This document shows, one piece after another, positions 17,322 to 18,716 of a stretch of 64,000 nucleotides of DNA. The first letter of the stretch is position 1; the number at the start of each line of letters is the position of its first letter. The position numbers were made by a program, and so were the translations under genes. The DNA is from Desulfobacteraceae bacterium. Lineage in GTDB: Bacteria; Desulfobacterota; Desulfobacteria; Desulfobacterales; Desulfococcaceae. The notes beneath the pieces are model-generated. The model searched no databases and was not told the DNA's origin. It saw only the letters and a list, made by a program, of their open reading frames with translations. The DNA is taken from assembly GCA_011390755.1 (NCBI GenBank), contig JAABRU010000005.1, positions 1-64,000 on the forward strand, read 5' to 3'.

Positions 17322-18650
17322 ATGATAAAATGCCCTGTATGCCAAAGTGAAGTACACAAGCCCGTTCCCCCTTTCTGTTCCCGATGCAGTTGGGATCTGA
17401 AAAATGATCTGACAATGGGGACCTTTCTGGACCTGCCGGATGCCGTGATTGAGGAATACCGGCAGCGGGTGGGGATTGCTGTAAAGAACTGGAATGAGAA
17501 AGCGGAACTGCTGAAAAAGCAGGCGGAACTGGAAGAAAAACTGCGGCGGATGGAAGCGGAGAGGAAGCAGAAAAAAGTGGCGGAATCTGCGCCGGAGCCG
17601 GAAGCTCCCAAAGCAGCGGGAAAACCCGCATCAAAGCCGTCTTCTGCGGAATATTCGGAAAAAACAGCGGTTCCCTTACTGAAAAGAGACCCTTTTGAAA
17701 CCCTTGCGGAATTTGAAAAGCGGATCAATGAATATCCCCCGGTTCCGGCCGGAATGGCGGAACTGATGAAGGATGAATATGATATTCAGTCCGGGAAATT
17801 TCCTTTACGGGTGAAATGGGCCGAATGGATGATAAAAGAACTGCCGGATTCTCTTCAGAAGAATGACAATCTGCATGTCCTTGCGGAGCGGGACAAAGCC
17901 CGCAGAATATATGAAGCCGGAGCAAAACACTGCCTGTTTGTCTGCCTGAAGGCTTTTGGAGAAAGGGTTTCTGCCGAAAAACCGGAAATATCTGTCCGGA
18001 ACCGGATTCTTTCGGTTGTAAGCAATTTGGCTCCCAAAGTCTGGAAAGAACCGGTAAGCGGCATGGAGTTTGTTTATATTCCAGCAGGTATCTTGGAGGA
18101 AAAATGGCTGAAAGGTTTTTACATGAGTAAATTTCCTGTGACACAGGGACAGTGGAAAGAAATTATAGGGAGCAATCCATCCCATTTTCAGAAGGGGGAT
18201 GACTACCCCGTTGAAAGTGTGTCTTGGAATGATACAAAGGAATTTATCAGGAAACTCAATGAAAAAAATCAGGGAAGTTATAAATTCCGCCTTCCTATGG
18301 AAGCCGAATGGGAATATGCAGCTCGGGCAGGGTCGGACAGAGTTTGGTGCTTCGGTGATGATGAAAGCCTGTTGGAGCAGTACGCTTGGTATAAAAAAAA
18401 TTCCGGCGGTTCCACCCATCCCGTTGGGCAGTTGAAACCCAATGCCTGGGGGCTGTACGACATGCACGGCAATGTATGGGAATGGTGTGAGGATGCGGAA
18501 GGGGCAGGCCGCGTGCTTCGCGGCGGGAGCTGGTACATCGGGGCGGACGACTGCCGGTCGGTCATCCGGAATTGGAACGACCCCGGCGGGCGGCTCAGCA
18601 ACCTGGGCTTCCGTGTCCTCGCAGTTCCGGCGCAGGGTCGGGCCAGGTAA
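17322..18650 (+). CDS. zinc-ribbon/coiled-coil FGE-sulfatase-domain protein, probable DGR target
   Basis: A 442-aa protein. The N-terminal zinc ribbon has CPVC...CSRC (residues 4-22). A charged coiled coil spans about 50-85, and an Ala/Pro linker leads to a helical middle region. From about residue 240 there is a formylglycine-generating-enzyme-like (C-type-lectin) domain: [59 protein letters not shown]. The last ~45 residues (RVLRGGSW...GFRVLAV) sit where DGR targets carry their variable region. Codons there are mostly of the form NNC and adenine is scarce. Likely a ligand-binding receptor rather than an enzyme. First gene of the accessory island; the ribosome-binding site is aaggaaaaacc. 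Confidence 0.85.
   Translation: [442 protein letters not shown]
18506..18650 (+). other. putative DGR variable region (VR)
   Basis: The 3' end of the FGE gene, encoding [11 protein letters not shown]..RN...GFRV, is GC-rich and A-poor. Several positions fit adenine-replaced AAC codons of a template repeat (tac, atc, gac, gac, atc, gac, ctc, agc), while the invariant tgccgg, ggcttccgt and ggcgggagctgg blocks are intact. This is the pattern left by DGR adenine-specific mutagenesis on a C-type-lectin fold. No template copy or reverse transcriptase was found in the window, so the DGR would act from elsewhere. Confidence 0.65.
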
Positions 18651-18659
18651 AGCGGAGGT

Positions 18660-18716
18660 CGGAAGGGGTACGGTTTCCGTTCGTGCGCTAGCCGAACGGA
18701 AACCGTACCCCTTCCG
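18660..18716. repeat. 24-bp perfect hairpin directly after the putative VR
   Basis: Arms ggaaggggtacggtttcc... and its exact complement (23 bp, plus one more outer C-G pair) enclose a 9-nt loop (tgcgctagc). It begins 10 bp after the FGE stop codon. DGR targets characteristically have a stem-loop just downstream of the VR that helps homing. There is no T-run after it, and a separate terminator-like hairpin follows, so a terminator role is less likely. Confidence 0.8.

Follow-up and report, generated by a model that had tools for sequence, protein, structure and literature searches.

The described systems closest to the locus treated here are the diversity-generating retroelements (DGRs) of Treponema denticola, Thiohalocapsa and Bordetella phage BPP-1. 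The T. denticola DGR acts on remote FGE targets (TvpA and six further target genes) and includes an HRDC accessory protein (PMC4891356). DGR targets in Thiohalocapsa also lie in trans, and the MoxR-associated and NACHT types of target have been suggested to sense antigens in multicellular bacteria (PMC10907252). In BPP-1, homing requires a hairpin behind the variable region (VR); such hairpins in phage DGRs have 7-10-bp stems and a GRNA loop and are located 4-34 bp behind the VR, and extensions of the stem are better tolerated than deletions (PMC3240598). The spacer beside the BPP-1 template (TR) folds and recruits the complex of reverse transcriptase (RT) and Avd (PMC12875486). Surveys that work contig by contig miss remote DGR targets (PMC8144416).

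The DNA analyzed in this work (the window) is a stretch of 64,000 nucleotides from a Desulfobacteraceae bacterium, positions 1 to 64,000 of the forward strand of contig JAABRU010000005.1 (assembly GCA_011390755.1). The assembly is a fragmented MAG of 6.9 Mb in 379 contigs, referred to below as G000, in which the window is contig C209. The gene under study occupies 17322..18650 on the plus strand (442 aa) and ends in a TAA stop codon at 18648-18650. The N-terminus of its product contains a zinc-ribbon-like CPVC...CSRC (CxxC/CxxC) motif, the middle part is charged and without Pfam match, and the C-terminus is an FGE-sulfatase domain (PF03781, E=6e-37, match at aa 260-433), the FGE/C-type-lectin region as a whole covering aa 239-442 (18036..18647, plus strand). 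A family profile was built from this domain, four other FGE copies of the same genome and one from another genome, G002. The best solved relative of the profile was TvpA of T. denticola, itself a DGR target (2y3c, 1.6e-54), with PvdO (3.4e-42) and the catalytic FGEs (about 1e-36) both behind it. An AlphaFold model of the window FGE domain had a mean pLDDT of 59 in the VR half and was too poor for use. A scan of the genome contigs with the complete target gave matches that were essentially confined to the FGE domain, and no near kin of the window gene.

The original prediction, made from the window alone, held that this FGE-domain gene ends in a DGR variable region, that neither an RT nor a template lies within the window, and that an adenine-bearing near copy of the VR should be present elsewhere in the genome. 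The template was sought by DNA search of the whole assembly, which returned three copies of the window VR: two paralogous VRs, on contigs C47 and C190, and an adenine-rich stretch at C47:2061-2184 on the minus strand. Homology to this TR defines a VR of 124 bp at 18501..18624 (plus strand), so the predicted span of 18506-18620 was correctly located and slightly too short. The window VR and the TR differ at 15 of 124 positions, all 15 at TR adenines; the TR comprises 31 adenines and 93 non-A sites, and the chance that randomly placed mismatches would all fall on A is about 3.8e-11. The same holds for the VR beside the TR on C47 (18/18 differences at TR adenines) and for the C190 VR (16/16), so that 0 of the 93 non-A sites are altered in any VR and 0 of 279 over the three. 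VR and TR are identical over the last stretch of the VR (18600..18624, plus strand; AACCTGGGCTTCCGTGTCCTCGCAG), the position of the IMH-like segment in DGRs, and past the CAG at its 3' end their similarity stops abruptly. Upstream of these paralogous VRs the DNA shows no more than 70-82% identity (18-30% divergence); the flawless non-A sites are therefore not due to general sequence conservation, and they point to recent copying from the TR. Whole-genome searches placed neither a TR nor an RT of the lineage on C209, and the adenine-only match on a different contig, C47, confirms the prediction, including its in-trans arrangement. Viral contigs scanned for the conserved VR 3' end gave no match.

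Just 3' of the stop codon, as had also been noted from the window alone, is a perfect inverted repeat at 18660-18716, formed by two 24-nt arms (5' arm 18660..18683 and 3' arm 18693..18716, plus strand, 100% complementary) around a 9-nt loop (18684..18692, plus strand; TGCGCTAGC). The repeat begins 9 bases past the TAA and 35 past the VR end. RNA folding of the region places two G-C pairs and a GCTA tetraloop within the 9-nt loop, giving a GC-GCTA-GC tip that is shared by the C47 hairpin and reads GC-GGTA-GC at C190. The GCTA tetraloop is one position off the phage GRNA consensus, and the 24-bp stem compares with 7-10 bp in phage DGRs. Hairpins follow all three VRs, with stems of 23-24 bp that differ in sequence. 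Between window and C47, seven stem pairs have both bases altered, no pair has a change in one base alone, and one C47 pair is mismatched; between window and C190, three pairs have both bases altered and again none has just one. Paralogous stems kept at this length by compensatory changes show that the window inverted repeat is not a chance occurrence. The untemplated tail between VR and hairpin is 31-35 nt long and 100% identical where the three loci align. Related DGRs of the same order likewise have an inverted repeat behind the VR, of other sequence and frequently exceeding those of phage DGRs in length or complexity. We infer that the hairpin acts in this genome as in phage BPP-1.

The same features could in principle be an ordinary GC-rich FGE C-terminus followed by a transcription terminator, and the RGGSW...GFR core is indeed found in FGE domains without DGR features, for example that encoded at window 60031-61500. 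We regard this explanation as highly improbable, as a TR with adenine-only differences contradicts an ordinary ending. A plain terminator was also rejected, given that no T-tract directly follows the hairpin and that the terminator scan lists only another, weaker site at 18764-18780.

Immediately 3' of each TR in eight related DGR loci is a conserved fold, in which GGTA and GGA motifs are invariant and the helices covary; the MAFFT alignment of these eight loci was not fitted to the RNA model, though it served to derive the structure. With C47 left out of its construction, a covariance model detects C47:1919-2060(-), which abuts the TR, with E=3.8e-16. On the whole of G000 the RNA model (R1) matches C60 and C47 only, which are thus the two TR RNAs of this structural type in the genome, and it matches 20 of 292 genomes of the order, G000 included. 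TR-flanking RNA loci include those at C47 (L041:1919-2060(-)), C60 (L044:5472-5619), L164, L165, L166, L169, L171, L172 and L174, among others. Covariation is strong across 15 aligned DGR loci: in an alignment that was fitted to the model, 90.8% of cells pair, 96 cells carry double changes compared with 29.3 in shuffles, and the covariation score falls from 0.50 to about 0.1 when partners are slid. The C47 RNA keeps this fold although its RT is gone, and is without the CTCA/TGA pairing that most of these loci have at the edge of the TR. Rfam gave no match at the TR-RNA site in C60 or C47. Because the BPP-1 spacer beside the TR folds and recruits RT-Avd, we take the TR-flanking RNA to be, probably, its functional counterpart. 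The system resembles BPP-1 in adenine-only mutation, a 3' homing segment, a hairpin behind the VR and a structured spacer RNA, whereas BPP-1 has Avd rather than HRDC, a 7-10-bp stem, a target in cis and a TR placed before the RT gene (PMC3240598, PMC12875486).

Related intact DGRs in the same order are arranged as VR, long hairpin, HRDC, RT and TR, with adenine-only mismatches. The intact RT that a core cassette has next to its TR is absent at C47, where the C-terminus of the RT and the N-terminal half of HRDC are left: between VR and TR, about 80 HRDC codons are fused directly to the last ~54 RT codons, with no stops. Most of both genes has thus been deleted. As here, T. denticola has HRDC and FGE/C-type-lectin targets, several of the remote ones sharing one TR (PMC4891356, 2y3c), and its targets persist in strains that have lost RT and TR. 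In T. denticola strains with a TR, however, the TR is in the core module with the RT gene (PMC4891356), whereas the C47 locus has kept TR and RNA and lost most of RT and HRDC.

A complete DGR is present on C60. Its RT, with YMDD and IGNLISQ motifs, is the sole full-length RT of the lineage found in G000, its TR and VR differ at 16 positions, all adenines, and its target, 1167 aa long, is of metallophosphatase-NACHT-FGE type (L044:148-3651, G000:C60). The DGR-type RT expected of this genome therefore exists, beside an adenine-only TR/VR pair of its own, but the RT adjoining the TR of the window gene is only a remnant, and that TR would depend on an RT supplied by a different locus or by cells in which the copy is intact. 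On C213, a truncated RT that lacks ~72 residues at its start and ~47 at its end is found beside an FGE gene (L043:2340-4630). This RT fragment is followed by a repeat copy that includes a hairpin segment, another copy being present behind the VR, which suggests a loss through rearrangement between the repeats. C159 (L177) carries a separate DGR, whose RT has YVDD and IGNLSSQ motifs and whose template overlaps the RT frame; the labels Avd-like for a gene and DUF1566-like for the TR at this locus are our reading by eye. Thiohalocapsa PB-PSB1 similarly has several DGRs per genome and degenerate loci diversified in trans, but with one complete locus per class (PMC10907252), while this assembly contains no complete locus of the window gene's class.

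Loci with VR, TR and RNA, and with no RT motif or RT remnant between VR and TR, were found in two other genomes. One is near 6070500 in G002, a single-contig genome (L227, G002:C1:6066000-6078000), with VR and TR 432 bp apart and 14 A and 1 other mismatch between them; the other is on G028:C42 (L176), with 20 A and 0 other mismatches. G002 and G028 each carry an RT of the same lineage elsewhere, which makes use of RT-less templates in trans likely. At three further loci, G118:C1:2131000-2143000 (L233), G028:C297 (L231) and G087:C55 (L234), the TR RNA is directly behind adenine-poor VR-like sequence, an arrangement that looks as if recombination of VR with TR had removed the intervening RT. L231 and L234 have the same 160 bases before the RNA, reflecting shared DNA or cross-binning.

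Copying into the window VR would be done by the intact C60 RT or by an intact C47 allele in other cells, and we rank them in that order. In the first case C47 would be a non-autonomous DGR, its TR RNA served in trans by the RT and HRDC of C60, which would serve their own TR too. We hold the chances of this to be evenly balanced. C60 supplies the only full-length RT of the lineage found in the genome, there are exactly two TR RNAs of the structural type, the one on C47 with its fold kept without an RT, and RT-less VR-TR-RNA loci recur in G002 and G028:C42 with same-lineage RTs elsewhere in those genomes. Over its last 53 aa, however, the RT remnant at C47 shares only about 32% identity with the C60 RT; together with the missing CTCA/TGA pairing, this low identity means that the components of C60 and C47 are perhaps not interchangeable. 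The second case, in which other cells of the population have an intact RT at C47 and the deletion seen here is a strain variant or an assembly join, is plausible but clearly less probable than not. The two remnants are both open and joined without a gap, as would be expected after a recent deletion, and Thiohalocapsa has intact and broken versions of one DGR locus side by side (PMC10907252); yet the assembly contains no intact copy, and RT-less loci are also found in single-contig G002, where assembly breaks play no part. It is improbable that the system is dead and the VRs are relics of past diversification. The RT remnant at C47 and the truncated RT at C213 would fit such decay, but the three VRs have no altered site among 279 non-A comparisons despite the 18-30% divergence upstream of them, and both the TR RNA fold and the hairpins are intact.

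The targets of these DGRs differ in domains and setting. The C47 target is apparently an exported protein, and that of C190 is an FGE protein of 823 aa preceded by a MoxR-like AAA ATPase (L042:1634-5422, G000:C190). Like Thiohalocapsa PB-PSB1 (PMC10907252), the genome has FGE/CLec targets that adjoin a MoxR-like ATPase (C190) or form part of a NACHT protein (C60). The window target has only the variable domain in common with the C190 and C60 targets, and differs from those of Thiohalocapsa PB-PSB1 in its CxxC/CxxC N-terminus and in having no vWA, NACHT or neighboring MoxR. Among the window neighbors, no vWA domain, NACHT/STAND protein or adjoining MoxR ATPase of a VMAP/MoxR ternary or NACHT conflict system was found; MoxR-like AAA and NACHT go with the C190 and C60 targets only. 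On the basis of family knowledge, our best inference is that the window target is a variable binding or sensor protein, in which the variable domain would be the sensor or binding module.

Downstream of the target in the window are a small AF2212-like gene (18974-19228), a coiled-coil-like protein without family match (19244..20596, plus strand), a tandem AAA+ ATPase of SpoVK/CbbX type with AAA_lid_6 (20521..23157, plus strand) and an Hsp70-like protein (26224..27831, plus strand). The original prediction had set the target within an AAA+/Hsp70 island; the island is present, but nothing was found to link it with the target. In G028, proteins similar to the coiled-coil, Hsp70 and SMC-like ones of window 19244-28868 are clustered on C438 and separate from the FGE target, the zinc-ribbon FGE relative of that genome being on C296 and lacking a DGR-type ending. 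A single system comprising the AAA+/Hsp70 genes and the target is thus unsupported. A second FGE-domain gene of the window, at 60031-61500 on the minus strand, showed neither a TR match nor a hairpin cassette.

The window gene is, with very high probability, a remote (in-trans) DGR target, with its TR on C47 and with an RT and HRDC copying that TR into the VR with adenine errors. In place are the adenine-only relation of this TR to three VRs, one of which, in the window gene, sits at the C-terminus of the C-type-lectin (FGE) domain, along with conserved hairpins, a conserved TR RNA and one intact RT of the lineage. In the mechanism that we propose, the TR on C47 would be transcribed together with the structured RNA behind it, and a DGR-type RT and the HRDC accessory protein would copy the TR RNA with errors at adenines. 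The cDNA would then take the place of the VR (18501-18624), with the identical 3' end and the hairpin behind the stop codon as guides. As a result the binding face of the C-type lectin would vary and its framework would remain fixed, and one TR would serve three targets with unrelated N-termini, the window, C47 and C190 proteins.

Remote DGR targets are a known kind, and the less ordinary part here is the template locus without an RT. In this case a remote target was foreseen from the target sequence alone and then confirmed by finding its template. More tentatively, and at somewhat less than an even chance, RT-less loci consisting of VR, hairpin, TR and conserved TR RNA may be a class of functional, recurring non-autonomous DGRs with RNAs that a shared RT, encoded elsewhere, recognizes. 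If so, one RT would hypermutate several unrelated sensors via different templates. The RNA model R1 provides a handle for locating TRs without an adjoining RT, and with it the idea of a single RT serving several templates becomes testable.
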